Source: Daejeonella sp. (lineage in GTDB: Bacteria > Bacteroidota > Bacteroidia > Sphingobacteriales > Sphingobacteriaceae). Taken from it: DNA of 33,861 bases. The translations under genes and the position numbers were made by a program. Positions 2,555-30,838 of the stretch are shown here, in pieces; position 1 is the first letter of the stretch; the number at the start of each line of letters is the position of its first letter. The notes beneath the pieces are model-generated. The model made no database searches and was not told the DNA's origin. It worked only from the letters and a program-made list of their open reading frames with translations. The DNA lies in assembly GCF_030684675.1 (NCBI RefSeq), contig NZ_JAUXXZ010000070.1, forward strand, positions 1-33,861, given 5' to 3'.

Positions 2555-2832
2555 TGAATTCGTTTTATTTTTGTGAATTGTCCTCTTTTTGGGTTCTCAA
2601 AATCGCATATAACATATATCTTAATGAACTAATTGATTGATCTAAAAAGATTTTTTAGATATCGATGAAAACTGCTCTTTAGAATTTGAGAAAAAACATA
2701 TTGGAAATTCTTAAAAATAAAGTCAATTTGCAAACAGGAATCAGGTATCGCTATTCAATAAAAAACAAATTACCATTTAAATTTTTTATTTGATCCGACA
2801 AACCTGATAGCTGATTATTGAGGCTCTCAAAC
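2555..2832. other. AT-rich upstream region of the NRPS-PKS operon
   Basis: No gene is visible between the higB promoter and the first biosynthetic gene. The stretch is very AT-rich and must contain the operon promoter. TTTATTTG at about 2786-2793 is one base off the -7 consensus, but no convincing -33 partner was found. An inverted repeat at 2640-2660 is the only clear structure. Confidence 0.5.
2640..2660. promoter_or_regulatory. 9-bp perfect inverted repeat upstream of the NRPS-PKS operon
   Basis: ATCTAAAAA and TTTTTAGAT are perfectly complementary across a 3-nt spacer (GAT). The position, about 170 bp before the first biosynthetic gene, fits an operator. There is no T-run downstream, so it is a poor terminator. 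No regulator gene is adjacent. Confidence 0.4.
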
Positions 2833-9330: not shown

Positions 9331-9334
9331 TACA

Positions 9335-13741: not shown

Positions 13742-16700
13742 ATAAAACTGAAAGAAACGACCTTCAGCTAAACCCGGAAAGGGTCTTTGTTCCGGCTACA
13801 GAATCTCAGATAGAGATCTTAATATCCTGTCTTTTAGGTGGTGATGAAGCAAGCCTGGCATACAATCTTTCTGTTACTCTAAATATTTCAGGGCCTCTTA
13901 ACCGCACTTTTCTTGAACAAAGCCTTCAGGATTTAATTGACCGTCATGAATCCCTGAGATCAGTCTTTACTAGTGATGCCTCTCAGATATGTATCTCTTC
14001 CAAACAATTACTGGATCTCAAATTTGAAGATCTGAGCCATAAGGACAATGATCAGAATAAAAATTTTATTGCTGATTTTATAGAATCTGAGGTCAACACA
14101 GTCTTCGATTTGCAAAATGGCCCATTGTATAAGTTATCCTTATTCAAACTTGAGAATAATAATCATGCACTGATCTTTACCGCCCACCATATCATATGTG
14201 ACGGATGGTCAATGGGGATTTTTCTCGATGAACTCGGTAAATTATACTCGGCCCGTATCAAAAATGAACCTTCTGAATTGGCTGAAGCAAATTCCTTTAC
14301 CCAATATGCCTTAGATCAAAAGAAATTTTCTCAAAGCAATGATTACAAGCAAATTGAACAATTCTGGCAAGACCAGTTTAAAGATAATGTACCTGTACTC
14401 GACTTGCCAACGGATTTCCAACGGCCGGCCATCAGAACTAATAAAAGTAATCGTTTAGATACTATCCTGGATAAGAATTTGTTTAGTGATATTAAAGGTT
14501 TCAGTAATAAGCAGGGTTCAAGCCTTGCAATTACCCTTCGGACAGTATTTGAAATTTTACTCTATAAACTGAGTGGTCAGGATGATATTGTTCTGGGACT
14601 CCCTTCGGCGGGACAGGCGATTACAGATAATTACCACCTGATGGGGCACTGTATCAACCTGCTTCCGATCAGATGCAGGCTTAAGGATGAAATGTCTTTC
14701 ACACAATATCTTAAAGAAAGAAAGTTCGCTACTCTCGATGCATACGATCATCAGCAGTTTACATTCGGAAGCCTTCTGAAAAATCTGAATATTCCACGTG
14801 ACCCTTCCAGAGCAACTTTAGTCTCAGTGGTATTCAGTCTTGATCAGGGTTTGGGAGGTATGATCAATTTTGAGGGATTAGAATGTAACGTTTTATCCAA
14901 TAAAAGGGATTATGAGAACTTTGAGCTATTTATTAATGCAACAATTGAAGATGAAGATTTCAAAATAGAATGGACCTATAACACCCAGTTGTTCAGGTCG
15001 GAAACTATCAAACAAATGATGGAGCAATTTGAGTCTCTTCTGAATACCCTTGTTAAAGATCCTCAGATAAAATTAAAAGACGTTCTTTTCAGTGACCGAA
15101 GCGATTTTTTGAAAAAAATTGCCGGATGGAATGATACGCAATTCAGCTATCCTGAAGACAAACCAATCTATAAATTTGTTTCAGAAAATGCAGAGAAACA
15201 TCCTGATAAAATTGCTGTTAGGTACAATAATAGTACCACCAGCTACAGAGAGCTGAATGAGAAAGCCAATCAGCTTGCCCACTATTTAATTGAAAATCAG
15301 GTTTGTCAGGGAGATACAATCGCGCTGGCAGTCGACCGTTCTGCTGAACTCCTGATCTGTTTGTTGGCTATTATGAAAACAGGAGCAGCATATGTTCCTG
15401 TTGATCCTGAATATCCTATCAAGCGAATTGAATATATGCTGGAGGATTCAGCAGCCAGGGTGTTAATCAGTTCTCATAAATATAAAAACCAATTTACCAG
15501 AGAGGGGACAAAAGAGATCGTACTTGAAGAAATTTTTCCGGAACTGATCAATTATCCTAGTACTGAACCTCTTGTAGAAGTTAAGGGAACTGACCTTGCG
15601 TATGTGATCTACACATCAGGATCAACCGGCAAGCCTAAAGGAATAGCCATTGAACACCATAGCCTTTGCAACTTTTTATGCAGTATGCAGAAGGAACCGG
15701 GCATTTCTGCTCAGGATAAGTTACTGGCGATGACTACAATTTCCTTTGATATCTCCGGACTTGAATTATATCTCCCGCTGATCAGCGGTGCAGAGCTCCT
15801 GATCACCGACGCTGATATAGCAAAGGATGCAAGAGAACTGCTAGACCTGATAAGAACAGAAAAAGTAAGTATCATGCAGGCTACACCATCTACCTGGCGA
15901 ATGATGGTAGAGAGTAATTGGAATGAACGGCTTGAACTCAAAGTACTTTGTGGCGGAGAAGCACTCAGTAAAGACCTGGCAGAAGCATTAATGGCCCGAT
16001 GTACTTCGCTATGGAACATGTACGGGCCAACAGAGACTACTATATGGTCGGCAGTAAAACAGATTAAAGATACTGATGCACAAATTAGTATCGGGCACCC
16101 GATTGCGAATACTCAGATCTATATTCTCGACCAGCACCTGCGACCGGTACCTGCCGGACGCACAGGAGAAATATATATTGGGGGTGCCGGACTAGCAAGA
16201 GCATATCTCAATAAGCCTGAACTTACGGCAAAAAGTTTTATTCAGAATCCAATATCACCCGAAATATCCAACAGAATTTATCGCAGCGGTGATCTGGGGA
16301 AATTTCTGGATAACGGAGAAGTCCAGTGTTTTGGGCGGGTCGACAATCAGGTCAAAATAAGAGGATATCGCATTGAATTAGGTGCTATTGAGGAAGCTTT
16401 AAATGAACAGGACAAGGTTAAAGAATCTTTAGTAATTGCCAGAGAAGACCGTCCAGGAGATCAAAGGCTGGTAGCTTATGTCATTCCTGACACAGAGGCT
16501 AATAACCTGAATTCATCTCAGATAGCCGCATGGAAACAAGGCATTAAGGAGTTATTACCATCATATATGGTTCCAGGTGATTTTGTAATTCTAAGCCAAT
16601 TTCCATTACTTCCAAATGGAAAAATTGATAGAAAAGCACTACCCAAGCCTAATGAGAGCCTCCTGGAAAACAAAAAGCCAGCACTACCCAAAACTGAGAC

Positions 16701-18078
16701 AGAGAAATTGATTGCTGAGGTTTGGAAAGTTGTTTTAGACATAGAATCGCTTGGCCTGAATGACGACTTCTTTGATCTGGGTGGACATTCACTTTTGGCC
16801 GTTCAGGTAATGACGCGCCTTGAAAAAGAGACGGGTGTTAAATTACCAATCACCACTCTATTTAAGATATCAGGATTTGCAGATTTTACAAAACAATTTG
16901 ATCTTGCTAAAGGTAAAATCGCTGATTCAAAACAGAAAATTGAATCTAATTCACAAAAAGACAAAGTTAATAAACAGCCAGACTCCAAAATAGGCTACGT
17001 TCCGCCCAGAACGGATGTTGAAAGTCTTGTCGCTCATATATGGGCTGAGAATCTGGGGCTTGACGCCGTGGGAGTATTCGATGATTTTTTTGAATTAGGC
17101 GGACATTCAATGATGGCAATACAGGTACTCAACCAGCTTGAAAAAGAGACCGGAAAGCGGCTGCCATTGGCTAGCTTATTTGAACACAGCACAGTAGAAT
17201 CAATGGCGCTGATGCTGGAAATGGATGCAAAATCAATTACCTGGGATTCATTGGTTGCTATCAAGCCACAAGGCAACAAAATGCCGCTTTATATTGTTCA
17301 TGGCGCTGGATTAAATGTATTATTTTTTAATACCCTGGCAAAAAACATGGATCCTGATCAGCCGGTATATGGTCTACAGGCAAGAGGGCTGAATGGTATT
17401 GACGAGCCATTGGAAAAAATCGAAGATATGGCTGCCTATTATATATCAGAAATAGTAAAACATAATCCAAAAGGACCGTATGCTATTGCAGGTTTTTCTT
17501 TCGGAGGTATCATAGCATTTGAGATGGCAAAGCAATTTAAAGCTATGGGTAAGGAGGTAAAAATGCTCGCCATGTTTGATACTTATGCCTATCAGTCTGA
17601 CCGATACGATTCTACATTCACAAGATTATTCAATAAGACCAGATACCTCAGTAAACAATTGCTTTATACCTTCACCCTGTTCAGTGAAGACCCTAAACGT
17701 ACAATTGAGTACAAAACTGAAGCAATAAAACGCAGGTTCATCCAATTCTACTGGAAACTCAAATATGGTCAGGAACAAAATCAGGAGGGATTTTTCGGAT
17801 ATTCCAATAACATCGATGTAAAGAATGTAGAAGCCTGGGAAAAATATGTATTTACTCCCTATAATGGTTCAATAGAGCTTTTCAGGGCAAAAAAAAGAAC
17901 TTTCTATATGGATGATTTCGAGTATCTCGGCTGGAAACCATTTGCACTAAAGGGAATCAGGATACATGAGATACCTGGAGAGCATAATTATATTTTTGCG
18001 CCACCAAATGATAAGGAGTTTGCAGAAATTCTTCAGAAATGCCTCGATGAGTCGGCACTAAAAAAGAGAGAAACCTAA
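13738..18078 (+). CDS. Terminating NRPS module C-A(Gly)-T-T-TE
   Basis: The 1446-residue protein starts within an ATGA overlap with the upstream NRPS, suggesting coupled translation. The condensation domain (about 15-450) has HHIICDG at 150-156. The adenylation domain (about 470-980) has the same specificity residues as the preceding one, D-I-L-Q-L-G-M-I-W-K, so glycine is predicted. It lacks the methyltransferase insertion. Two carrier domains follow in tandem, both with intact GGHS motifs (S1018 and S1124), separated by a Lys/Gln/Ser-rich linker (about 1050-1080). The thioesterase (about 1175-1440) shows GFSFGG with Ser1254, Asp1281 (MFDTY) and His1416 (GEHNY), a complete alpha/beta-hydrolase triad. 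It should release the chain by hydrolysis or cyclisation. The C and A domains are closely similar to those of the upstream gene, indicating module duplication. There is no epimerase domain. Confidence 0.9.
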   Translation: MNKTERNDLQLNPERVFVPATESQIEILISCLLGGDEASLAYNLSVTLNISGPLNRTFLEQSLQDLIDRHESLRSVFTSDASQICISSKQLLDLKFEDLSHKDNDQNKNFIADFIESEVNTVFDLQNGPLYKLSLFKLENNNHALIFTAHHIICDGWSMGIFLDELGKLYSARIKNEPSELAEANSFTQYALDQKKFSQSNDYKQIEQFWQDQFKDNVPVLDLPTDFQRPAIRTNKSNRLDTILDKNLFSDIKGFSNKQGSSLAITLRTVFEILLYKLSGQDDIVLGLPSAGQAITDNYHLMGHCINLLPIRCRLKDEMSFTQYLKERKFATLDAYDHQQFTFGSLLKNLNIPRDPSRATLVSVVFSLDQGLGGMINFEGLECNVLSNKRDYENFELFINATIEDEDFKIEWTYNTQLFRSETIKQMMEQFESLLNTLVKDPQIKLKDVLFSDRSDFLKKIAGWNDTQFSYPEDKPIYKFVSENAEKHPDKIAVRYNNSTTSYRELNEKANQLAHYLIENQVCQGDTIALAVDRSAELLICLLAIMKTGAAYVPVDPEYPIKRIEYMLEDSAARVLISSHKYKNQFTREGTKEIVLEEIFPELINYPSTEPLVEVKGTDLAYVIYTSGSTGKPKGIAIEHHSLCNFLCSMQKEPGISAQDKLLAMTTISFDISGLELYLPLISGAELLITDADIAKDARELLDLIRTEKVSIMQATPSTWRMMVESNWNERLELKVLCGGEALSKDLAEALMARCTSLWNMYGPTETTIWSAVKQIKDTDAQISIGHPIANTQIYILDQHLRPVPAGRTGEIYIGGAGLARAYLNKPELTAKSFIQNPISPEISNRIYRSGDLGKFLDNGEVQCFGRVDNQVKIRGYRIELGAIEEALNEQDKVKESLVIAREDRPGDQRLVAYVIPDTEANNLNSSQIAAWKQGIKELLPSYMVPGDFVILSQFPLLPNGKIDRKALPKPNESLLENKKPALPKTETEKLIAEVWKVVLDIESLGLNDDFFDLGGHSLLAVQVMTRLEKETGVKLPITTLFKISGFADFTKQFDLAKGKIADSKQKIESNSQKDKVNKQPDSKIGYVPPRTDVESLVAHIWAENLGLDAVGVFDDFFELGGHSMMAIQVLNQLEKETGKRLPLASLFEHSTVESMALMLEMDAKSITWDSLVAIKPQGNKMPLYIVHGAGLNVLFFNTLAKNMDPDQPVYGLQARGLNGIDEPLEKIEDMAAYYISEIVKHNPKGPYAIAGFSFGGIIAFEMAKQFKAMGKEVKMLAMFDTYAYQSDRYDSTFTRLFNKTRYLSKQLLYTFTLFSEDPKRTIEYKTEAIKRRFIQFYWKLKYGQEQNQEGFFGYSNNIDVKNVEAWEKYVFTPYNGSIELFRAKKRTFYMDDFEYLGWKPFALKGIRIHEIPGEHNYIFAPPNDKEFAEILQKCLDESALKKRET

Positions 18079-18086
18079 TATCTCAC

Positions 18087-18809
18087 ATGTCAACGAACCG
18101 GATTTTCTGCGAACAGATCGACCCTATATGGCAAAAAGGATTTTTTAGCCACTCAGAAAAACAGGTCGACATCTGGAAAATAAGTATGCAGGGCTACCAC
18201 CTTATTCCAGAAAATATACTCAGTAAGGGTGAACTTTTAAAGGCAGCCCGTTTTCTTCATTCCAAAGACCGTGATTCTTTTATTTCCAGAAGAGCAGCCC
18301 TGAGAATTCTCCTCAGCAGATATACTGACATTCCCGCTTCAGAGATTGAGTTTATCGCAGGCAAAAATAAAAAACCAGAGCTGAGAGCAGAGTCAGATAA
18401 AATACAGTTTAATGTATCCCATTCAGGTGAACTAATTCTGATTGCCATATCAAATACTGAGATTGGGGTTGATATTGAACGATTAGAAACAGGCTTCAAG
18501 TACACTGATATCCTTAAACATAGTTTCAGTGAGCATGAAATTAGTTGCATCGAAGAGGCGTCTGATAGCAGGGAGCTTTTTTTCAGACTCTGGACCCGCA
18601 AAGAAGCCCAGTGCAAAGCAAGTTCAAAAGGGCTGGACGATGAACTCAGGAATATTCCCTGCCTCGACGGCTGGCATAACATTAATGAAGAACTCATCGG
18701 ATTAAATGGCAACTGGCTACTGAAAAGTTTCAATATTGATTATGAATATATTGGCAGTATCGCCTGCCAGACTGAAACAAAGCTAAATTATTTGTATTTT
18801 GAATTCTGA
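18087..18809 (+). CDS. Sfp-type 4'-phosphopantetheinyl transferase
   Basis: This 240-residue enzyme transfers the phosphopantetheine arm of CoA to carrier-domain serines, here presumably the five carrier domains of the three upstream megasynthases. Diagnostic motifs are present: NVSHS (109-113), GVDIE (127-131, with the metal-binding Asp129 and Glu131) and WTRKEA (169-174). Its length is typical of the Sfp/Gsp class. It starts 8 nt after the NRPS stop in the same direction, so it is almost certainly co-transcribed. The activating enzyme is thus encoded with the assembly line, which argues that the cluster is functionally complete. Confidence 0.93.
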   Translation: MSTNRIFCEQIDPIWQKGFFSHSEKQVDIWKISMQGYHLIPENILSKGELLKAARFLHSKDRDSFISRRAALRILLSRYTDIPASEIEFIAGKNKKPELRAESDKIQFNVSHSGELILIAISNTEIGVDIERLETGFKYTDILKHSFSEHEISCIEEASDSRELFFRLWTRKEAQCKASSKGLDDELRNIPCLDGWHNINEELIGLNGNWLLKSFNIDYEYIGSIACQTETKLNYLYFEF

Positions 18810-21454: not shown

Positions 21455-22705
21455 TTATCCTGCGTTAGCGCGGAACATCAAAGCTCCAACAGTCAGGTTT
21501 GTACGAGGATCAATCAGAATCGCACCCCCATTCAGTTTATTATCCTGATAAAGATCAAAAGCAAGGGATTCAGCAGTTTTAAGCACTATCCGACCGATAT
21601 CATTTAATTGAAACGAATCTGTGTCTATTTTTTCAAGAGTATTTATATTAACCTTATGAAGGATCTCACGAATCTTACATTTAGTAACCTTACTATTATG
21701 CTGGATCAGGTACATGATAGACGAATCCAGCGGACGTGTGTCCATCCAGCATAAATCTGCCTCAATTTCCTGAGAAACCAGAGGCTCATGAGAAGTATTA
21801 ACCAAAATATCACCGCGGCCAATATCAATATTATCCTTAAGGTGAAGGGTTACCGACATTCCCGACTGCGCCTCATCCTGTTCTGAAAAATCGGTTTCAA
21901 TTTTACTGATCTCTGAACGGATTCCCGATGGCAGAACCGTAATCTTATCATTCACATGAAAACTTCCACTTAAAATACGACCGGCGTATCCACGATAATC
22001 ATGAAGTTCATCAGTCTGCGGTCTGATCACCCATTGTACAGGCATGCGTGCCTGATGTGACAATACCGCTTCATTTACCTCGATGGTTTCGAGATGATCA
22101 AGCAGGCTCTTCCCATCATACCAGGACATTTTATCTGATTTATTTACAATATTATCTCCCTTCAGAGCACTTACCGGAATATAGGTTACCTCTTTCAGGT
22201 TAAGTTTAACCGCAATGGCAGCATAAGCCTCCCTGATGGAATTGAAAACATCCTCACTGTAAGCCACCATATCCATCTTATTGATACAGACAACCACATG
22301 TTTAAGTTCAAGAAGGGAAACCAGGAAAGAATGTCTGATGGTTTGCTCCACCACACCATTTCGGGCATCCACCAGAATAATCGCCAGGTCAGAATTGGAT
22401 GCTCCGGTAACCATATTTCGGGTATACTGGATATGTCCCGGAGTATCAGCAATGATAAACTTTCTTCTGTCTGTCTGAAAATATTTATAGGCCACATCAA
22501 TGGTAATCCCCTGCTCGCGCTCAGCCTTTAATCCATCTGTTAAAATGGCCAGGTCAATTGTTCCGTCATCATTCTTACGGTTCGACTGCTGCAAAGCCTC
22601 AAGCTGATCGGCGAGGATTGACTCACTATCATAAAGAAGACGGCCAATTAAAGTACTCTTACCGTCATCTACACTTCCGGCTGTAAAAAATTTTAGTAAA
22701 TCCAT
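21455..22705 (-). CDS. cysN: Sulfate adenylyltransferase subunit 1 (GTPase)
   Basis: The 416-residue GTPase subunit couples GTP hydrolysis to formation of adenosine 5'-phosphosulfate (APS) by CysD. Translation-factor GTPase motifs are clear: the P-loop GSVDDGKS (10-17), GITID, DTPGH and NKMD. They are followed by EF-Tu-like beta domains. No APS kinase (CysC) domain is fused, which agrees with the APS-type reductase in the same operon. The open frame extends further upstream, but the start at 22705 (MDLLKFF) gives the family's usual N-terminus and leaves a 1-nt gap after cysD, so the longer reading is rejected. It is the last gene of the sulfate operon. Confidence 0.95.
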   Translation of the reverse strand: MDLLKFFTAGSVDDGKSTLIGRLLYDSESILADQLEALQQSNRKNDDGTIDLAILTDGLKAEREQGITIDVAYKYFQTDRRKFIIADTPGHIQYTRNMVTGASNSDLAIILVDARNGVVEQTIRHSFLVSLLELKHVVVCINKMDMVAYSEDVFNSIREAYAAIAVKLNLKEVTYIPVSALKGDNIVNKSDKMSWYDGKSLLDHLETIEVNEAVLSHQARMPVQWVIRPQTDELHDYRGYAGRILSGSFHVNDKITVLPSGIRSEISKIETDFSEQDEAQSGMSVTLHLKDNIDIGRGDILVNTSHEPLVSQEIEADLCWMDTRPLDSSIMYLIQHNSKVTKCKIREILHKVNINTLEKIDTDSFQLNDIGRIVLKTAESLAFDLYQDNKLNGGAILIDPRTNLTVGALMFRANAG

Positions 22706-22706
22706 A

Positions 22707-23612
22707 TTAAAAATATCCCCCCTTCTTACGGTCTTCCATGGCAGCCTCGGATACTTTGTCATCCATTCTGGCGCCTCGTTCACTAATTTTTGAAAATTTG
22801 ATCTCTTCAATGATATCATCGATCTGATCTGCATCCGACTCAACAGCTGCAGTACAGGTCATATCCCCCACCGTTCTGAAACGAACATTCTTACGTTCTA
22901 TATGATCCTCATGATCCATGTTCAGGAACTCAGCTGCAGCCATTAACTGTCCATTTCGGGTAATAACCTCGCGCTCATGTGCAAAATAGATCGATGGCAA
23001 TTCGATTTTTTCCCGACGGATATAATTCCAGACATCGAGTTCAGTCCAGTTACTGATCGGGAATACCCTGACATTTTCTCCTTTATGGATTCTGCCATTA
23101 TAAATATTCCATAGTTCCGGCCGCTGACGTTTCGGATCCCATTGCCCAAATTCATCACGGACCGAAAATATTCTCTCTTTGGCGCGGGCCTTTTCCTCAT
23201 CCCTGCGGGCACCGCCTATGCATGCATCAAACTTATTTTCGGCAATGGTGTCCAGCAAAGTGACGGTTTGCAGGGCATTTCTACTCGCATTTTTCCCAGT
23301 CTGTTCAATTACCTTTCCCTGATCAATTGAATCCTGAACATAACCTACAATCAGTTTCTCTCCAATCCTTGAGATCATATTATCACGATAGGTAATTGTC
23401 TCAGGAAAATTATGTCCGGTATCTATATGCACCAGTGGAAAGGGAAACTTTCCGGGTCTGAATGCTTTTTCAGCAAGTCTGACAAGTGTTATCGAGTCCT
23501 TTCCGCCAGAAAATAACAAAGCGGGTTTTTCAAACTGGCCGGCAACTTCACGCAATATATATATTGCTTCGGCTTCCAGCTGGTCTAAATAAGTTGTGTC
23601 CTGTTTATTCAT
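22707..23612 (-). CDS. cysD: Sulfate adenylyltransferase subunit 2
   Basis: The 301-residue catalytic subunit joins sulfate to ATP to give APS. It belongs to the PP-loop ATP pyrophosphatase fold, with SGGKDS at 35-40. Conserved CysD segments follow: HIDTGHNFPE, GGARRDEEKARAKER, and the C-terminal RFRTVGDMTCTAAV and ERGARMDDK. Length is normal for the family. It lies 50 bp after cysH and 1 nt before cysN, so it is co-transcribed with both, and the two subunits form one complex. Confidence 0.96.
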   Translation of the reverse strand: MNKQDTTYLDQLEAEAIYILREVAGQFEKPALLFSGGKDSITLVRLAEKAFRPGKFPFPLVHIDTGHNFPETITYRDNMISRIGEKLIVGYVQDSIDQGKVIEQTGKNASRNALQTVTLLDTIAENKFDACIGGARRDEEKARAKERIFSVRDEFGQWDPKRQRPELWNIYNGRIHKGENVRVFPISNWTELDVWNYIRREKIELPSIYFAHEREVITRNGQLMAAAEFLNMDHEDHIERKNVRFRTVGDMTCTAAVESDADQIDDIIEEIKFSKISERGARMDDKVSEAAMEDRKKGGYF

Positions 23613-23662: not shown

Positions 23663-24361
23663 TCAGGAAGAATGTAAACCACATTCCTTTTTATCCTGAT
23701 CTTCCCACCACCAGCGACCGGCCCTGAAATCTTCCCCTTCTTTAACAGCCCGGGTACAAGGAGCACATCCAATACTCGGGAAACCCTTGTCGTGCAATGG
23801 GTTATAAGGAATATTATTCTCGCGGATGTATGCTTTAACCTGATTCAATGTCCAATCGAAAATAGGATGAAATTTAAGGATCTGATTTGCCTCATCCCAT
23901 TCAACAGGATCCATGTGTTCCCTGTTCAGCGATTGCTCTGCACGAATACCTGTTATCCAGCATGAATTACCGGCAAGAGCACGCTTCAATGGCTCAATTT
24001 TCCTGATCCCACAGCATTCTTTACGATTCTCTACCGATTCATAAAAACTGCTGGGACCTTTAGAACTAACCATTTTTTCTACCGCTGCAGTATCAGGATA
24101 ATAGGCATGTATGGACTTCCCATACATTTCGAGTGTCCGGTTCCAGACATAATACGTCTCGGGAAATAATCTCCCTGTTTCAAGAGTAAATACTTTGATC
24201 GGGAGATTATTTTTAAATATTATGTGCGAAATCACCTGATCTTCCCATCCAAAACTCGTTGAAAAAATCACTTCTCCCGGAAAAGTCTTCACCAGATATT
24301 CCAGTGACTGTTCAATCCCTAAACCTTTGATCTCCTGAAGTATTTTTTCCGAACTGTTCAT
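23663..24361 (-). CDS. cysH: APS-type assimilatory reductase
   Basis: The 232-residue enzyme reduces activated sulfate to sulfite using thioredoxin-like donors. Besides the PP-loop-derived core (STSFGWEDQ, ETGRLFPETY) and the C-terminal ECGLH motif (catalytic Cys227), it contains two cysteine pairs: ECCG (Cys116-Cys117) and CAPC (Cys199, Cys202). These pairs bind the [4Fe-4S] cluster that marks APS reductases, as opposed to the PAPS reductases of E. coli. The absence of an APS kinase in the operon supports this. It starts 6 nt after the upstream gene's stop. Confidence 0.94.
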   Translation of the reverse strand: MNSSEKILQEIKGLGIEQSLEYLVKTFPGEVIFSTSFGWEDQVISHIIFKNNLPIKVFTLETGRLFPETYYVWNRTLEMYGKSIHAYYPDTAAVEKMVSSKGPSSFYESVENRKECCGIRKIEPLKRALAGNSCWITGIRAEQSLNREHMDPVEWDEANQILKFHPIFDWTLNQVKAYIRENNIPYNPLHDKGFPSIGCAPCTRAVKEGEDFRAGRWWWEDQDKKECGLHSS

Positions 24362-24367
24362 TATATT

Positions 24368-25537
24368 TTAATTTATCGAATTATCGAGCGCCTGTGACAG
24401 ATCTTCAAGGATATCATCAATATCCTCCAAACCGACAGATATCCTGATACTGCCGGGGAAAATTCCAATCTGTGCACGTTCTGCATCACTTAATTTAGAA
24501 TGGGTTGTTGAGGCCGGATGGGTCGCAATTGAACGGGTATCTCCAAGATTGGGTGATAACAGGATCATCTTCAATGCATCCATAAACCGTTTCCCTCGTT
24601 CAAAGCCTCCTTTAACTATAAAGGTAACAATACCACCACCCTGCTTCATCTGACGTTTAGCCAGTTCATATTGCGGGTGGGAAGGCAGGTGTGGATATCT
24701 GACAACTTCTACTTCAGGATGCTGTTCCAGAGTTTCTGCGACTTTCAATGCATTACTGCAATGCCTGTCCATCCTTACAGGAAGAGTTTCAAGACTTTTT
24801 GAAATAGTCCAGGCATTGAAAGCCGACATCGCAGGGCCTGTATGTCGAATAAAGAACATCAGCTCTTTTAACAAATCTTTACGGCCAACTACTACTCCTC
24901 CAAGTACTCTTCCTTGTCCGTCCATATATTTAGTCGCCGAATGGCTTACCAGATCAGCACCATACTCGATGGGCTTTTGCAGATAGGGCGTGGCAAAACA
25001 ATTATCCACGTTTAAGATGAAATTATGCTTTTGTTTTAATTTCCCGAGCCATTCCAGATCAACCAGTTCAAGTCCGGGATTTGATGGTGTTTCAAGAAAT
25101 ACCATTTTTGTTTCAGGGCGCAATGCAGGCTCAAAATCTTCCGGCTTTGATGCGTCAACATACGTTGTGGTAATGCCCCAGCGCGGCAGTAATTGAGTGA
25201 ATAACTGATGGGTAGAACCAAATATTGAACGAAACGCAACGATATGATCTCCGCTGCGGAGCAAACCTGCAATCGAAGCAAATACAGCCGCCATTCCTGA
25301 TGAAAAAGCCAATCCAGCTTCAGCACCTTCAAAATCACGCACTTTGTCTATGAATTCTGTGGTATTTGGGTTAGAATAACGGGAATAGATATTTCCCTCT
25401 ACTTCATCAGCAAACATAGCTCTTCCATGCTCTGCATTATCGAACACAAAACTTGAAGTCAGGTAGAGCGGCACTGAATGTTCTTTGTTTGAGGTACGTG
25501 CTGCCTGGGTTCGTATGAGCTTGGATTTTTCTTTCAT
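24368..25537 (-). CDS. metZ: O-succinylhomoserine sulfhydrylase-type PLP enzyme
   Basis: This Cys/Met-metabolism PLP-dependent enzyme of 389 residues most resembles O-succinylhomoserine sulfhydrylases, which use sulfide to make homocysteine. Seen are the SRYSNPNT substrate loop, SSGMAAVFA, LETPSNPGLELVDL, the PLP lysine in SHSATKYMDG (Lys203) and the C-terminal SIGLE-type segment (RISVGLEDIDD). Placing it inside the sulfate operon makes sense because it consumes the sulfide formed by the upstream reductase. The frame can also begin at a TTG at 25558. The ATG at 25537 is preferred because the TTG overlaps a TATTTTTG that matches the -7 consensus and may be an internal promoter. A cystathionine gamma-synthase role cannot be excluded. 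Confidence 0.85.
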   Translation of the reverse strand: MKEKSKLIRTQAARTSNKEHSVPLYLTSSFVFDNAEHGRAMFADEVEGNIYSRYSNPNTTEFIDKVRDFEGAEAGLAFSSGMAAVFASIAGLLRSGDHIVAFRSIFGSTHQLFTQLLPRWGITTTYVDASKPEDFEPALRPETKMVFLETPSNPGLELVDLEWLGKLKQKHNFILNVDNCFATPYLQKPIEYGADLVSHSATKYMDGQGRVLGGVVVGRKDLLKELMFFIRHTGPAMSAFNAWTISKSLETLPVRMDRHCSNALKVAETLEQHPEVEVVRYPHLPSHPQYELAKRQMKQGGGIVTFIVKGGFERGKRFMDALKMILLSPNLGDTRSIATHPASTTHSKLSDAERAQIGIFPGSIRISVGLEDIDDILEDLSQALDNSIN

Positions 25538-25568
25538 TGTTCTGTAGGATTTCGGCAAAAATACTTAA

Positions 25569-27068
25569 TTAAATAAAATTAATCAGGGTGGTGATAATTG
25601 TTTTAAGACTCACTACAATAACAATTATACTTACCGCAATCATGATTGCTTTAACCGAAATTTTATTAGACAAACGGGCAGCAATAGGCGATGCAATCGC
25701 ACTGCCAATAACCAGACCCAAAACAGCATCCCAGTATACATTATTTAGCATCGTAATAAATGCCAGAGAACTCATTAATGCAATAAAGAATCTCGAAAGT
25801 TTTACCGTTCCCAGGGCATATCGGGCATTACGTCCGCCTGCAATGAGGGAAGACAAAACAATCGATCCCCAACCACCACCACCAACCGCATCAATAAAAC
25901 CGCCTCCAAAACCAAGAAAACGAATATTTTTAATTTTAGCGCTGTTTTTTTTACGATTTATCTTAATTGCCTTAAGCAGGATTACTATCCCGAGAATTAA
26001 AGTATATAATGAAACAATAGGCTTGGTTATATAACTATAATGCTCAAGGGATGAAAGCAAAACCGCACCGAGTACTGCACCGATCACACCTGGAATAAGC
26101 AATAACCAGAATAAACGCATATTCACATTTTTCATCCTGAAATGCATCCAGCCGGCAATGCCATTGCTCAGGATCTCTGAAACATGAACTGCGGTACTTG
26201 CTGAGGCCGGTGGAATACCCATAGACAATGAAAAGGTTGTAGAAGTAACACCATAGGACATTCCTATTGCACCATCGATCATCGCAAAAATAAATCCGGC
26301 GATCAGGAAATAATAAAAAGTGGGATGAATCCCTTCCACATAATTGCGGAATGCCGGATCATTAAACCAGAATAGTCCGAAAATCAACAGAATACTAAAA
26401 AAACCTGCTCCCCATATCGCCCATCGCATTCTTCTGCTGGCCACCTGCTCTGCTGCTGGAGTGACCAGGATCGCAGTTGCCTTGTTTAACTCCTTCACCT
26501 TGTGTGCAAAATCACCATTGAGTGTATTTCTTAATGCATTCATCTGCTGCAGGGAAAGATCTAGCTCATCAGGCAGGTTCTCCTGAAAAAGCTCCTTCAG
26601 TCGTTTGGCAATTGTTGGCGATTTCCCATTCGTCGAAATCCCGATTTTGAGATCCCCTTTTTTTACAATTGATCCCAGATAAAAATCACAGAGTTCAGGC
26701 TTATCCGCCACATTAATTAGTAAATTCAGCTCACGTGCCATGCTTCTGATCTCAGCATTTAAAGTATTATCCCCGGTTGCAAGAATAACAATATCATGCC
26801 CGAGAAGATCATTTGATTCGAACTTCCTGTGAAAAAGTTTTACTTCAGGATAAGCTGCAACAAAATCTAAAAGTGTTGGCAGAAAGGTGTCAGAAACAAT
26901 AGTAATCTTAGCTTCGGGGCTGTTTAATAATACGGCCTGCAATTTTTCAAGTCCGATATTTCCACCCCCAACCAGCAAAACCTTAAGCTGATTAAGCTTA
27001 AGGAATACCGGAAAAAGTTGATTTCCCTCCTTTTTAACTTCAATGCTATTCTTGCTCTGAAAGCTCAT
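25569..27068 (-). CDS. Precorrin-2 dehydrogenase fused to a TSUP (TauE/SafE) transporter
   Basis: The 499-residue protein joins two functions. Residues 1 to about 205 form a Met8p/CysG-N-like domain with a Rossmann GGGNIG (34-39), a VADKPELCDF segment and the dimerisation region SIVKKGDLKIGISTNGKSP. This domain oxidises precorrin-2 and may insert iron to make siroheme. Residues from about 215 to 499 are hydrophobic, with about eight helices, and resemble the TSUP family (FAMIDGAIGMSYGV, ASASTAVHVSE, FGGGFIDAVGGGGWG). Members move sulfite, sulfate or organosulfonates. The gene overlaps the SUMT gene by 23 nt and precedes metZ. The fusion tethers siroheme synthesis to the membrane and to a presumed sulfur-anion transporter. 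The transport substrate is inferred from context. Confidence 0.88.
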   Translation of the reverse strand: MSFQSKNSIEVKKEGNQLFPVFLKLNQLKVLLVGGGNIGLEKLQAVLLNSPEAKITIVSDTFLPTLLDFVAAYPEVKLFHRKFESNDLLGHDIVILATGDNTLNAEIRSMARELNLLINVADKPELCDFYLGSIVKKGDLKIGISTNGKSPTIAKRLKELFQENLPDELDLSLQQMNALRNTLNGDFAHKVKELNKATAILVTPAAEQVASRRMRWAIWGAGFFSILLIFGLFWFNDPAFRNYVEGIHPTFYYFLIAGFIFAMIDGAIGMSYGVTSTTFSLSMGIPPASASTAVHVSEILSNGIAGWMHFRMKNVNMRLFWLLLIPGVIGAVLGAVLLSSLEHYSYITKPIVSLYTLILGIVILLKAIKINRKKNSAKIKNIRFLGFGGGFIDAVGGGGWGSIVLSSLIAGGRNARYALGTVKLSRFFIALMSSLAFITMLNNVYWDAVLGLVIGSAIASPIAARLSNKISVKAIMIAVSIIVIVVSLKTIITTLINFI

Positions 27069-27837
27069 AGAATGCCTTAATTGGCTGAAATTTTGAATGC
27101 AAGCCTACAACTTCACCGAAGATAATTAAAGCAGGAGAGTCAATTTTATGATCCTGAGCAGTTTCATAGATTGTTGCAGCAGTAGCCACAACAACTTTCT
27201 CATTTTCCATCGATCCGTTCTGAATAACCGCTGCCGGAAGCCTGCTTTTGCCTTCGGCAACAAATATTTCAGCAATCTCCTTTAATTTTTTAACTCCCAT
27301 CAGAACGACAATTGTTGCGTCTGTTTTAGCTGCAGTATAAAGATCTTTAGAAATTTCTCCTGAACTGGTCGTTCCGGTAACTACCCAAAAACTTTCACTT
27401 ACACCACGATGAGTAACCGGTATTCCCTGAAGTGCCGGGACAGATATACTGCTTGAAATTCCGGGTACAACTTCTGTTTGAATACTGTAGGATGCTGCCA
27501 TTTCCAATTCCTCAAAACCACGTCCGAAAACGAATGGATCTCCACCTTTCAAACGAACTACGTGACCGTAGTTCAATGCATAATCAATCATCAGTTTATT
27601 CACCGCTTCCTGTGAATAGGAATGATCGCCTGAACGTTTACCTACATATACTTTTATTGCACTTTCAGGTGCAAAATCAAGCAATTCACTGTTCACCAGC
27701 GCATCATATAAAACTACATCTGCAGATTTCAGAATACGTACACCTTTCAGACTGATCAGTTCTGCATCACCTGGACCTGCGCCAACCAGAGTAATTCTTG
27801 GTTCTTTAATTATATTTTTTACCTGAGTCTGTATCAT
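27046..27837 (-). CDS. cobA: Uroporphyrinogen-III C-methyltransferase
   Basis: The 263-residue SUMT methylates uroporphyrinogen III twice with SAM to give precorrin-2, the entry to siroheme. Family motifs are clear: LVGAGPGD (17-24), VLYDALV, a GKRSG segment, RLKGGDPFVFGRG and VPGISSS. It overlaps the sulfite reductase stop by 4 nt (ATGA) and the dehydrogenase-transporter gene by 23 nt, indicating tight translational coupling. It supplies siroheme for the reductase encoded just before it. The name sumT or the CysG C-terminal domain would be equally suitable. Confidence 0.94.
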   Translation of the reverse strand: MIQTQVKNIIKEPRITLVGAGPGDAELISLKGVRILKSADVVLYDALVNSELLDFAPESAIKVYVGKRSGDHSYSQEAVNKLMIDYALNYGHVVRLKGGDPFVFGRGFEELEMAASYSIQTEVVPGISSSISVPALQGIPVTHRGVSESFWVVTGTTSSGEISKDLYTAAKTDATIVVLMGVKKLKEIAEIFVAEGKSRLPAAVIQNGSMENEKVVVATAATIYETAQDHKIDSPALIIFGEVVGLHSKFQPIKAFYELSEQE

Positions 27838-29933
27838 GATTGAATCGCCTCCTTTTCTTTCTTAATTCTATTAATAAAATCAACTGTTGTACCCACATAA
27901 TGTTGAGCAAACTCAGCTGATGGCTCATTTTTATTTATTTGCAGTACCAGGTCATTAAAGCTTCCAAGACCGGCAAGAATGCTGCTCTCTTTGTATTGTT
28001 CGTCAAAATCCCGAATAATCCCGGTTTGAGTGCTACTGTTAATGCCTTTATCCAGCAACATCGCTTTCGCGCTGCTAATGAATACGCTGTAGGCATGATA
28101 GATTGAATCAGAGTAAGCTTTCGCATCAAAAGATTCAACAGACCATTGCAGTTTCTCTTCTGCCTCAAGCAATAAGGTTGAAACCAGATCGATCATCACT
28201 CCCGCACATTCTCCGACACCAATTGCTGTTTCGAAAGTCTCTTCATGTCCCCAGTCAACAAACTCATCAGGTGTAAGTGTACTAAGATCGGCGAGCGGTT
28301 TTAAGAGCTGATAAAAATGATCCTTCCCAAGTCTGTCATAATATTCGTTGAAAAGTTCATTTTCCTGCTTATTGTGCCTGTAATTATCCAGCACAAACCT
28401 GACAACATCTTTGGTTCTTTTAGACGGAACTTTGATCACCTTATCGGCAGCACGGCCCAGACCATCGCCTAAAGTACCACCACCTAATAAAACCTGTGCT
28501 GCAGGGACTACTTTTCCGGCAGCTTTTAGTGAGCTTCCATGAAAGCCAATCTGAGCAAGCCCATGCTGACCGCAACTGTTCATACAACCGCTAATCTTTA
28601 TTTTAATATCCTGATTATCAAGTAATTCATCGTATTCATCAGAGATAAGATCTTCCAGAACACGCGCTAATTCGGTGCTGTTTGAAATTCCAAGATTACA
28701 GGTATCTGTACCCGGACAGGTGGTAACATCCCCCACACTATCAAATCCGGGCTTAACAAAATCCAGCTCCTTTAAACGTTCGAACAGAAGTGGCAAGGCC
28801 TCTTTTCTGGCAAACTTTAAAAGCAAACCCTGATTAATAGTAATTCTAATTTCATCCGCTACAAGTCCGTTGATCGCTGAAATAAACTTTCTGGCTTTGG
28901 CTGTTGGAATGTCTCCGGTAGTAACCTTAATGTAGACACCATAAAACCCTTCCTGTTTTTGCTCAAATACATTGGTATCCAGCCAGCGTTGGTATTGAAA
29001 CTGATCAGTGATTTGAGCTTCCGGCAGAGAAATTACTTCAGGAATTTCAGGTAGGGCAATGGTATCACGATCAATAACAAATTTCTTAAATCGGATTGCT
29101 TTTTTCTCAGCTTCAATAAGCCTTAAAACTTCTTCAAGTCCCAATTTAGCAACCAGAAATTTCATCCTTGCTTTATTCCTGTTCGTGCGTTCACCATGTC
29201 TGTCGAACACCCTTAGAGTAGCCTCAATATATGGAATCAATTCATTTTCGGGAAGAAAATCGTTAATCGCATGAGCAATTGAAGGCTGAGCACCAAGCCC
29301 CCCGCCAAACAAAACTTTAAACCCGCGGATCTCTTTTCCTTCCTTTACCTGAACCTTGGGAATAAACCCCAGATCATGAATATAGGTAAAGGCAGAATCT
29401 GCTTCGGTAGCCGAAAATGCGATCTTGAACTTTCTGCCCATTTCCTGACAGATTGGGTTACGCAGAAAATATTTAAAGGTTGCATGGGCATAAGGTGAAA
29501 CATCAAAGAGCTCATTCGGATCAATTCCGGCAGTTGAAGAAGCAGTAACATTTCTCACCGTATTTCCACAGGCTTCTCTGAGTGTGATATCATCCTGCTC
29601 CAGTTTTGCCCATAATTCAGGTGTACGATCCAGACTTACATAGTGAATCTGGATATCCTGACGTGTGGTTAAATGAAGATTGCTGCTCGCATACTCATCC
29701 GAAATATCAGCAATACGCAGGATTTGCTTAAAGCTAATTTTTCCGAAAGGAAGCTTGATTCGAATCATCTGCACTCCGGGCTGTCGCTGACCATAAATAC
29801 CGCGGGCTAAACGAAGGCTGCGAAATTTCTCATCATGGATCTTACCTTCACGAAATTCCCTGATCTTCTTTTCGAGATCAATGATATCCTTTTGTACAAT
29901 CGGATCTTCTAATTCTGTTCTGAAACTGTTCAT
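27834..29933 (-). CDS. Siroheme [4Fe-4S] sulfite (nitrite) reductase with C-terminal HEPN-like extension
   Basis: The 699-residue protein is a nitrite/sulfite reductase-family hemoprotein. It shows the duplicated ferredoxin-like and catalytic halves (RGIYGQRQPGVQMIRIK, HLTTRQDIQ, GNTVRNVTAS). The siroheme/iron-sulfur cysteines are Cys406-x5-Cys412 (TCPGTDTC) and Cys450-x3-Cys454 (GCMNSCG). Its place in an operon with APS reductase and no nitrate genes makes sulfite the likely substrate, reduced by six electrons to sulfide. After about residue 545 there is an extra, mainly helical region of about 150 residues, like the HEPN-annotated tail in Bacteroidota homologues. Its role is unknown. It is the first structural gene of the operon, starting 9 nt after the U-tract of a strong terminator. 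No flavoprotein subunit is present in the window. Confidence 0.93.
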   Translation of the reverse strand: MNSFRTELEDPIVQKDIIDLEKKIREFREGKIHDEKFRSLRLARGIYGQRQPGVQMIRIKLPFGKISFKQILRIADISDEYASSNLHLTTRQDIQIHYVSLDRTPELWAKLEQDDITLREACGNTVRNVTASSTAGIDPNELFDVSPYAHATFKYFLRNPICQEMGRKFKIAFSATEADSAFTYIHDLGFIPKVQVKEGKEIRGFKVLFGGGLGAQPSIAHAINDFLPENELIPYIEATLRVFDRHGERTNRNKARMKFLVAKLGLEEVLRLIEAEKKAIRFKKFVIDRDTIALPEIPEVISLPEAQITDQFQYQRWLDTNVFEQKQEGFYGVYIKVTTGDIPTAKARKFISAINGLVADEIRITINQGLLLKFARKEALPLLFERLKELDFVKPGFDSVGDVTTCPGTDTCNLGISNSTELARVLEDLISDEYDELLDNQDIKIKISGCMNSCGQHGLAQIGFHGSSLKAAGKVVPAAQVLLGGGTLGDGLGRAADKVIKVPSKRTKDVVRFVLDNYRHNKQENELFNEYYDRLGKDHFYQLLKPLADLSTLTPDEFVDWGHEETFETAIGVGECAGVMIDLVSTLLLEAEEKLQWSVESFDAKAYSDSIYHAYSVFISSAKAMLLDKGINSSTQTGIIRDFDEQYKESSILAGLGSFNDLVLQINKNEPSAEFAQHYVGTTVDFINRIKKEKEAIQS

Positions 29934-29942
29934 TTATATTTC

Positions 29943-29975
29943 AAAAAAAAACCTCTTCTAATGTTTGAAGAGGTT
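29943..29975 (-). terminator. Intrinsic terminator in the leader of the sulfate operon (attenuator)
   Basis: On the minus strand AACCTCTTC (29975-29967), an 8-nt loop and GAAGAGGTT (29958-29950) form a perfect 9-bp stem followed by eight or more U residues (to 29943). The sulfite reductase ATG is at 29933, leaving no room for a promoter after the terminator. Operon transcription must therefore read through it, which points to regulated attenuation. Termination of the rrf2 transcript is a further possible role. Confidence 0.85.
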
Positions 29976-30011
29976 CATGCATATAATAAATTATTTTATG
30001 TCTGGTCTTCC

Positions 30012-30086
30012 TCAATGATTAATTATGCCCATATAACAACAATTCATTGTTATTTCATTGAAAACAGGAAGGCTTAATTTTTTCAT
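30012..30086 (-). CDS. 24-residue Cys-Cys leader peptide of the sulfate operon
   Basis: A short open frame starts at the ATG at 30086 and ends at TGA (30014-30012). It encodes a peptide beginning MKKLSLPVF and containing NCCYM at residues 15-19, with the two UGU cysteine codons at 30041-30036. It lies between a -7 element and the intrinsic terminator, about 36 nt before the hairpin. The RNA can fold so that the Cys codons sit in a small hairpin (arms 30047-30053 and 30033-30039). That hairpin is enclosed by an 11-bp interrupted stem (30066-30071 plus 30056-30060 pairing with 30007-30017). This is the design of an amino-acid attenuator in which a ribosome slows at cysteine codons when charged Cys-tRNA is scarce. 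I have no homology evidence for the peptide; the call rests on position and content. Confidence 0.65.
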   Translation of the reverse strand: MKKLSLPVFNEITMNCCYMGIINH

Positions 30087-30090
30087 TAGG

Positions 30091-30098
30091 CAAATATA
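30091..30098 (-). promoter_or_regulatory. -7 promoter element of the sulfate operon
   Basis: TATATTTG on the minus strand matches the TAnnTTTG consensus. The expected transcription start, about 4-5 nt downstream, nearly coincides with the leader ORF's ATG at 30086, so the leader would be read from a leaderless or almost leaderless RNA. No clear TTG at -33 was found, which may mean that an activator is needed. Confidence 0.55.
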
Positions 30099-30140
30099 AT
30101 ACAAAGCATATAGATTTAGTAGACTTTTTTTGAAAAAAAA

Positions 30141-30584
30141 TTATTGAGTGTAATTTTCTATTAAATTCTTTTCTCTTTTTATCACATCCGCAATACTTGT
30201 TTCGCTTAAAATCTTGACTGTAACATCCCTCACATCTACAAAAACATCTCTCACACCGCAAGTTACTTCATTGTCGCACTCATCGCATTTCTGATAAAAA
30301 TTCAGGCTGACGCAGGGAAGAAGGGCAACGGGTCCACCTGTAAGACGCAAGATCTGAACCACTGAGATCTCTGCAGGATCTTTTACAAGTCCATAACCAC
30401 CACCCGAACCTTTCTTGCTGTATAAAAGACCTGCATTTCTGAGGTCGAGAAGAATTTGCTCCAGAAACTTCTTAGGGATGTGCTCCTCTGAGGCAATTTT
30501 AGAAATTTGAATAGGAACCCCTCCAAAATTTTTCCCCAAAACTACGAGGGCTTTTAAAGCATAACGGGTCTTTTTAGAAAGCAT
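30141..30584 (-). CDS. Rrf2-family transcriptional regulator with four cysteines
   Basis: The 147-residue protein has the Rrf2 winged-helix domain: MLSKKTRYALKALVVLG at the start, a recognition region IPKKFLEQILLDLRNAG (36-52) and the wing KKGSGGGYGL (57-66). A cluster Cys91, Cys100, Cys103, Cys109 follows, in the place where IscR and NsrR carry Fe-S ligands, although the spacing differs. Rrf2 members include CymR, which controls sulfur assimilation in Firmicutes. It is encoded directly upstream of, and in the same direction as, the sulfate operon, so it is a good candidate regulator of that operon's promoter. Whether the cysteines bind a cluster or act as a thiol switch cannot be decided here. 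Confidence 0.88.
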   Translation of the reverse strand: MLSKKTRYALKALVVLGKNFGGVPIQISKIASEEHIPKKFLEQILLDLRNAGLLYSKKGSGGGYGLVKDPAEISVVQILRLTGGPVALLPCVSLNFYQKCDECDNEVTCGVRDVFVDVRDVTVKILSETSIADVIKREKNLIENYTQ

Positions 30585-30696
30585 AAATTTTGAAGGCTCT
30601 TTTGGTCATGCAAATAAACACAATTTCTTTTTGAATTCATCTCCAAATTCTGCTATGAATTAGAACTTGAAAATGTTTAAGATACGAAATAAGAAT

Positions 30697-30838
30697 TGAG
30701 ATGCGAGATATGTGATGTGAGATATGAGATGTGAGATATGAGATGTGAGGTCTGAGGTCTGAGATACGACATATGAAAGTCTTGTCCTTAGTCCTTGATC
30801 CTGGCTCTTGATTCTTGGCTCTTGATTCTTGGTTCTGA
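30697..30838. repeat. Degenerate low-complexity repeats
   Basis: About 30697-30776 consists of diverged tandem words of the type GAGATATGAGATGTGA, turning into GAGGTCTGAGGTCTGA. About 30785-30838 repeats GGCTCTTGATTCTT. The minus-strand open frame through it has a repetitive, non-protein-like composition (repeated SHISHLISHI), so I do not call a gene. The block lies just beyond the stop of the MFS transporter gene. Confidence 0.7.

Follow-up and report, generated by a model that had tools for sequence, protein, structure and literature searches.

How is an operon expressed when an intrinsic terminator ends 9 nt before its first gene, and what is the role of the short open reading frame (ORF) with two adjacent Cys codons that precedes this terminator? 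These questions are raised by a sulfate assimilation locus in the window, i.e. the whole stretch of 33,861 nucleotides of Daejeonella sp. DNA that was analyzed, for which the initial annotation had proposed control by a cysteine-codon attenuator. Comparison of the window with relatives supports this interpretation: the conservation of the Cys codons, the terminator and the antiterminator pairing in the pooled relatives point to transcription attenuation of the classical, ribosome-mediated kind, with charged tRNA-Cys and probably also tRNA-Met as the signal, a reading to which we assign a probability of roughly 0.88. Such a switch would very probably let the cell run the sulfate assimilation pathway only when Cys or Met is short.

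Organization of the leader and of the operon behind it

The whole feature lies on the minus strand and is described here in 5' to 3' order. Its putative -7 promoter box, TATATTTG (30091..30098), matches TAnnTTTG, given as the Bacteroidota -7 consensus (PMC9723704; PMC7366714), and stands 4 nt 5' of the ATG of a 24-codon leader-peptide ORF, MKKLSLPVFNEITMNCCYMGIINH (30012..30086; ATG at 30086, TGA ending at 30012). The predicted sensor within this ORF is TGT TGT (30036..30041), two adjacent Cys codons, and this doublet is kept in relatives. The 5' strand of the predicted antiterminator, TTGAGGA (30009..30015), overlaps the stop codon, and its 3' strand, TCTTCAA (29965..29971), lies within the 5' arm and loop of the terminator; both were assigned from state folding and from pairing in the leaders of the genus. 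The intrinsic terminator stem-loop, AACCTCTTC/GAAGAGGTT (29950..29975), was found by a terminator scan and starts after a spacer of 36 bases from the ORF stop. It is followed by a run of nine T (29943..29951), the first two of which also close the stem, and 9 nt separate the end of this run from the first gene, which starts with an ATG at 29933, leaving no room for a promoter after the T run. The -7 element, the ORF with consecutive Cys codons and the terminator with its U-tract ending 9 nt before the first structural gene, all named in the initial annotation, are thus present at these positions. In the scan of both strands from 29700 to 30700 the leader hairpin was the sole terminator-like site (0.5 expected), and the leader RNA folded better than its shuffled versions (z -3.0; 2 of 200 shuffles as good). 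Searches against Rfam gave no match at gathering score, either for the window leader or for the loci of 18 relatives, whose weaker matches were at chance level and included His_leader (E 0.078) on L268.

The first structural gene (27834..29933) encodes a NirA-type sulfite/nitrite reductase with Pfam NIR_SIR, NIR_SIR_ferr and HEPN matches (NCBIfam NirA family below cut-off); the HEPN match lies near its C-terminus (E 3.7e-5). It is followed, likewise on the minus strand, by genes for uroporphyrinogen-III C-methyltransferase (27046..27837; TIGR01469 above cut-off), a sirohaem synthase N-terminal domain fused to a TauE-type sulfite exporter domain (25569..27068; Pfam, TIGR01470), an O-succinylhomoserine sulfhydrylase-like enzyme of the homocysteine/Met branch (24368..25558; best NCBIfam match, below its cut-off), adenylylsulfate (APS) reductase (23663..24361; TIGR02055 above cut-off), the small subunit of sulfate adenylyltransferase, CysD (22707..23612; TIGR02039 above cut-off), and its large subunit, CysN (21455..22843; TIGR02034 above cut-off), the true start of which is probably downstream of the annotated TTG. 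As judged from these family assignments, the operon is one for sulfate assimilation with a branch to homocysteine, and its predicted products are sulfide, the precursor of Cys, and homocysteine. The upstream neighbor on the same strand (30141..30584) is predicted to encode an Rrf2-family regulator (Pfam Rrf2; CymR model below cut-off), which could possibly regulate the same promoter. A conserved element, ctactaaatctata (30109..30122, minus strand), was detected 5' of the promoter box in a motif scan with at most three loci per genus or family and is a candidate operator. In genera that have the leader, a CTAYTAANNCTATA(G)-like motif precedes the promoter box, and in some that lack it (L118, L121, L128, L136) the motif stands immediately 5' of the start codon; it may be the operator of the neighboring Rrf2/CymR-like regulator. 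Elsewhere the window contains a hybrid PKS-NRPS gene cluster (2818-18809, plus strand) with AMP-binding, ketosynthase, acyltransferase, aminotransferase, condensation, methyltransferase, thioesterase and phosphopantetheinyl transferase domains, as well as a match above gathering score to Flavo-1 RNA (RF01705; 33486-33582, minus strand), a Bacteroidota RNA of unknown function.

Recurrence in relatives and the identity of the conserved codons

A match to the first gene was found in 131 of the 151 genomes of the window's family, and upstream DNA was taken from 130 places (L011-L040, L041-L140), of which 129 were long enough and one (L119) was too short. Promoter box, Cys ORF and terminator recurred in g1, the window's genus, in which one record (L142) is named Daejeonella and others Pedobacter or Sphingobacteriales, as well as in g14 (which includes Pedobacter), g15 (Mucilaginibacter), g4 (Parapedobacter), g8 and part of g19. 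After misplaced ORFs had been removed, the leader was counted in 13/16 upstreams of g1, 11/18 of g14, 16/18 of g15, 4/9 of g4, 3/16 of g19 and 2/2 of g8; the Cys-doublet leader was absent from g16 (0/5), g17 (0/18), g21 (0/7) and the remaining genera of the family. No terminator was scored in g17 and g21, and the box, where seen, lay at most about 90 nt from the gene. A search of Sphingobacteriaceae for a conserved short ORF with CC plus terminator upstream of sulfite reductase, by which the initial annotation had meant its proposal to be checked, found this arrangement in several genera.

The element extends beyond Sphingobacteriaceae. In a class-wide draw the first gene was matched in 95 of 395 genomes, and a Cys-doublet ORF was located before it in 22 of 75 upstreams from outside the family. 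Up to 8 kb of upstream DNA was taken for 20 of these 75 loci, 19 of them having no Cys ORF before the gene, and a Cys ORF with terminator was found farther upstream in 7 of the 19; the reverse strand of the same 20 loci gave one match. The leader is present in 14 of the 24 sampled families other than the window's own, f2 being counted on one doubtful ORF (L248) that a stricter filter at the same place (L338) did not return, and no leader was found in the other 10. Three loci of f21 (L326, about 6265-6674; L327, turned, about 6712-7092; L328, about 7510-7884) carry two Cys/Met leaders in series before one operon, each with its own terminator, and these double leaders look like tandem attenuators; in L326 and L327 an aldo/keto reductase gene sits between leader and sulfite reductase. 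In f68 (L274, L286, L288, L291) terminator-like hairpins precede the gene in 4/4 upstreams and there is no Cys leader; in L286, L288 and L291 the start codon is preceded by a motif resembling CTATAGAC. Around position 1501 of the reverse complement of L311 (G019), an intergenic ORF with a Cys run precedes a long hairpin that is rich in GC and has a T tail.

When the sets were merged and duplicates removed (25 named loci), 259 distinct orthologue upstreams remained, and a terminator was scored in 124 of them. A short ORF with CC was present in 83 of these 124, where dinucleotide shuffles gave an expectation of 7.7, and in 14 of the 135 without terminator (4.4 expected from the same kind of shuffles); these counts are inflated by kinship, yet the matches are spread over many genera and families. 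Conversely, the script score placed a terminator in 83 of the 97 upstreams having a Cys-doublet ORF. The possibility allowed for in the initial annotation, that the ORF or its Cys codons might not be conserved in relatives, is thus opposite to what was found. The doublet rule misses Cys leaders without CC (e.g. L018, L029, L075, L083, L109, L112), and 41 of the 124 terminator-bearing upstreams lacked a Cys doublet; in L140 and a few class loci (e.g. L228) the ORF begins some codons off the true start. Four Cys ORFs that were out of position (L104, L123, L156, L161) are included in the doublet counts and were left out later, so that 93 of 97 were kept.

The enrichment was highest for Cys. Among the 124 upstreams, doublets were counted for Cys in 83 (7.3 expected), Met in 30 (11.4 expected) and Thr in 33 (14.4 expected), corresponding, with half a count added, to 10.6-, 2.5- and 2.2-fold over expectation, and all other amino acids remained below 2. 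Since both TGT (184) and TGC (134) were used, and all four spellings of the first doublet were found (TGTTGT 36, TGTTGC 26, TGCTGT 23, TGCTGC 12), it is the Cys codon that is kept and not a fixed RNA word. The leader peptides were otherwise unlike across genera, and the distance from Cys run to stop varied. Met codons were also frequent: after the first codon, the 93 leaders contained 221 in-frame ATG versus 24 and 10 in the other frames, part of the in-frame ones being alternative starts since the longest frame was taken. Relative to the Cys run, Met occupied the second residue before it in 38/92 leaders, the first before in 23/93, the first after in 33/92 and the second after in 17/92, and in 82 of the 93 a Met lay within three residues of the run. 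A Met 3' of the Cys run is not a start codon, and as the operon also encodes a homocysteine-forming enzyme, a Cys/Met sensor is plausible; we infer that the sensor looks like one composed of Cys plus Met codons.

Predicted start, alternative pairing and the proposed switch

A recognizable box with a start codon was found in 73 of the 93 leaders, the other 20 having no box or no such start. The start codon, defined as the in-frame ATG or GTG nearest to the box on its 3' side, a rule that favors short spacings, followed the box by exactly 4 bases in 37 of these 73; this spacing was seen in 11/11 leaders of g1, 10/11 of g14 and 3/3 of g4, and in g15 it was 7-14 in 13/16. In Flavobacterium psychrophilum the -7 box is reported at -12 to -5 (PMC9723704), which together with the 4-nt spacing would place the A of the window ATG at +1. 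Translation of the leader is thus predicted to begin, probably, at or next to the RNA 5' end. Figures given for the phylum are 5.5% leaderless mRNAs in F. psychrophilum (PMC9723704) and 3.7% 5' UTRs shorter than 10 nt in B. thetaiotaomicron (PMC7366714), and because such mRNAs are rare in the phylum, the leader might be useful for studying leaderless AUG use.

The window leader was folded in different states with an assumed ribosome footprint of 9, 12 or 15 nt. With the ribosome at the Cys codons, the TTGAGGA/TCTTCAA antiterminator formed (-9.9 kcal/mol) before the 3' arm of the terminator was made. With the ribosome at the stop codon the antiterminator was blocked (-1.6 to -1.3 kcal/mol) and the terminator came next, that of the free RNA amounting to -12.2 to -13.5 kcal/mol. 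The antiterminator could also form in ribosome-free RNA. Once the 3' arm was complete the terminator was more stable (-15.2), and therefore the antiterminator must win kinetically. Taken alone, the window antiterminator did not differ significantly from shuffled sequences (23/100 as good). Among 82 leaders, however, from which L104 had also been left out, 26 were at or below 5/100 shuffles (about 4 expected), with a mean z of -1.45, and pairing with the leader's own arm was better than the mean with the arms of other groups in 67 of the 82. In the 13 leaders of the window's genus 86.8% of the helix cells were paired, versus 40-65% with slid partners; the helices of this genus were nearly invariant, and no covariation was seen in them.

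In Mucilaginibacter the corresponding helix is formed between the two codons preceding the stop and the terminator arm and loop. In an alignment of 18 rows (A2), which are related sequences picked by hand for their register, 91.7% of the cells were paired and 10 cells had changed on both sides, and 0/500 shuffles matched the paired fraction, the double changes or the covariation score; two of the five measures, the pair and type counts, did not exceed the shuffles, of which 444 and 133 of 500 were as high. The rows came from 40 upstreams, 6 of them without anchor and 22 with comparable Cys-to-stop distance, and those of the same register that were left out (L027, L036, L151, L159) pair worse; with all 22 rows, 112 of 132 cells (84.8%) were paired. 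The predicted antiterminator is thus supported in the pooled set and in Mucilaginibacter, where it covaries. The initial annotation had described a different structure, an interrupted stem enclosing a small hairpin around the Cys codons, and this stem was indeed seen in the fold of the free RNA, but the alternative helix supported by comparison, TTGAGGA/TCTTCAA, is predicted to sit at the stop codon and not around the Cys codons. A further candidate helix, CAATGA/TCATTG, which joins the start-codon region with a segment after the stop, was rejected: it was 89.7% paired in the Daejeonella group and 191/500 shuffles were as high, and if translation is leaderless it would be partly untranscribed.

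These parts suggest the following course of events, for which coupling of transcription and translation in Bacteroidota is assumed. RNA polymerase would begin transcription at the AUG of the leader ORF or immediately beside it, and the nascent leader would be translated by a ribosome. When Cys (or Met) is ample, the ribosome would reach the stop codon and cover TTGAGGA, allowing the terminator to form, and transcription would end 9 nt before the first gene. When Cys-tRNA is scarce, the ribosome would pause on the Cys codons, some 21 nt short of the stop, leaving TTGAGGA free to pair with the 5' arm of the terminator, and polymerase would enter the operon.

Other explanations for the same parts have to be weighed against this attenuator. 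The hairpin could simply terminate transcription of the upstream Rrf2 gene, whose end lies on the same strand 42 nt 5' of the promoter box with no other terminator-like site between, and the short ORF could be there by chance; the f68 upstreams, with a terminator in 4/4 and a Cys ORF in none, indicate that plain terminators do occur at the same place. However, in the window the promoter box precedes the hairpin and just 9 nt follow the T run, and the Cys ORF recurs far above chance, including the 14 of 24 other families, so that we regard this explanation as very unlikely. Slightly less improbable, although still quite unlikely, is a Cys leader peptide that controls translation of the first gene, as cited for mycobacteria, and not transcription. 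Mycobacterial Cys genes are cited as being under translation attenuation (PMC13236596), and their poly-Cys ORFs are leaderless according to the title of a work cited for them, as is predicted here too. What stands against translational control is the hairpin with its nine-T tail before the gene, together with the antiterminator pairing supported in relatives. In the mycobacterial leaders the 2005 survey saw no conserved terminator hairpin (PMC1262725).

The peptide itself could also be the sensor, either as an arrest peptide or by sensing metals or redox state through its Cys and Met residues. Metal-binding peptides, too, combine these two amino acids, and the proximity of Met to the Cys run in 82/93 leaders would agree with such a function. 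Unlike in known arrest peptides, however, no pattern beyond Cys and Met is evident across genera in the peptides listed; moreover, the distance from Cys run to stop varies and the operon is one of sulfur assimilation, which makes sensing by the peptide extremely unlikely. We therefore retain the transcription attenuator responding to charged tRNA as the explanation of the leader.

A second Cys leader and comparison with known systems

A scan for ATGTGYTGYTGY in 24 genomes returned mostly longer ORFs among the 30 loci listed, one of which (L318) was the leader already known. Another, L316 from a g15 genome, was a Cys ORF between a SAM riboswitch (RF00162) and a gene for O-acetylhomoserine sulfhydrylase/cysteine synthase (TIGR01326 above cut-off). 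The O-acetylhomoserine sulfhydrylase gene was found in 39 of 41 g15 genomes; a Cys-doublet ORF lay within 330 nt upstream in 30/30 loci listed (L346-L375; 4.0 expected), 29 of these 30 ORFs end in Cys, and a SAM riboswitch was detected in 15/15 loci run against Rfam. In the other genomes the gene was present in 21/30, an ORF with a Cys run at or a few codons from the stop in 14/21 loci (the loci examined include L376-L393), and a SAM riboswitch in 11 of the 15 loci run against Rfam. The window's own genome has this second leader as well (L378, G000:C52, upstream of 78068), with an ORF ending in YCC. Inspection of three loci by eye revealed no terminator after the second-leader ORF. The combination of SAM riboswitch and Cys ORF looks like a two-input leader for SAM and Cys.

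On a broader view, to which we would give even odds, the Bacteroidia may have a sulfur amino-acid regulon in which ribosomes do the sensing on Cys/Met codons and which comes in two architectures: a leaderless Cys/Met ORF gating an intrinsic terminator at sulfate assimilation, with two gates in series in one family, and a composite of SAM riboswitch and Cys-run-ending ORF at homocysteine synthase, a single RNA that would respond to Met, in the form of SAM, as well as to Cys. If true, this would imply that ribosome and polymerase are closely coupled in a phylum where initiation is not dependent on Shine-Dalgarno sequences, and that two phyla have come to use leaderless Cys ORFs by convergence. 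The searchable open literature says little on how Bacteroidota control cysteine synthesis, and a leader that is conserved, translated and joined to an intrinsic terminator would offer a direct test of how closely ribosome and polymerase follow each other in this phylum. The leader might further serve as a Cys/Met sensor in engineered Bacteroidota and help to recognize sulfur operons during annotation.

Sulfur amino-acid genes are well known to be controlled by leader RNAs such as the S-box, the T-box and other sulfur riboswitches, which act at the same level of control as proposed for the window leader, although the latter has no Rfam match at gathering score. The classical leader-peptide attenuators are those of the enteric trp, his, leu, ilv, thr and phe operons. 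Like these, the window leader has a short ORF rich in codons for the product and an antiterminator competing with an intrinsic terminator before a biosynthetic operon, and all three components were found here, the mutually exclusive antiterminator in the pooled set, in Mucilaginibacter and by state folding. It differs from the enteric attenuators in its Cys (plus Met) codons, its Bacteroidota promoter, the tandem copies in one family and the leaderless start predicted in half of the leaders with a box. In F. psychrophilum, which belongs to the same phylum as the window, amino-acid operons were reported to show "strong clues" of leader-peptide attenuation in their upstream regions, with no Cys leader named in the passages concerned (PMC9723704).

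The poly-Cys leaderless short ORFs of mycobacteria were reportedly treated by Canestrari in 2020. Leader ORFs with Cys codons were predicted without terminators in Actinobacteria in 2005 (Seliverstov, PMC1262725), mycobacterial ones were seen by ribosome profiling (Shell 2015, PMC4633059), and those of M. smegmatis are cited as translation attenuators (PMC13236596). Like them, the window leader has a short ORF with Cys codons ahead of cys genes and is predicted to have a leaderless start, but it combines these with an antiterminator and an intrinsic terminator 9 nt before the gene, whereas for the mycobacterial ORFs translation attenuation is cited and no conserved terminator was seen in 2005. 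As the two groups belong to different phyla, the likeness is probably convergent. The open-licence literature yielded no published Bacteroidota Cys leader, a weak negative given that subscription papers and supplements lie outside its scope. Compared with these known systems, what appears to be new is the phylum, the coupling of a Cys/Met sensor to an intrinsic terminator, the class-wide breadth, the leaderless start that is predicted here and the arrangement in tandem.
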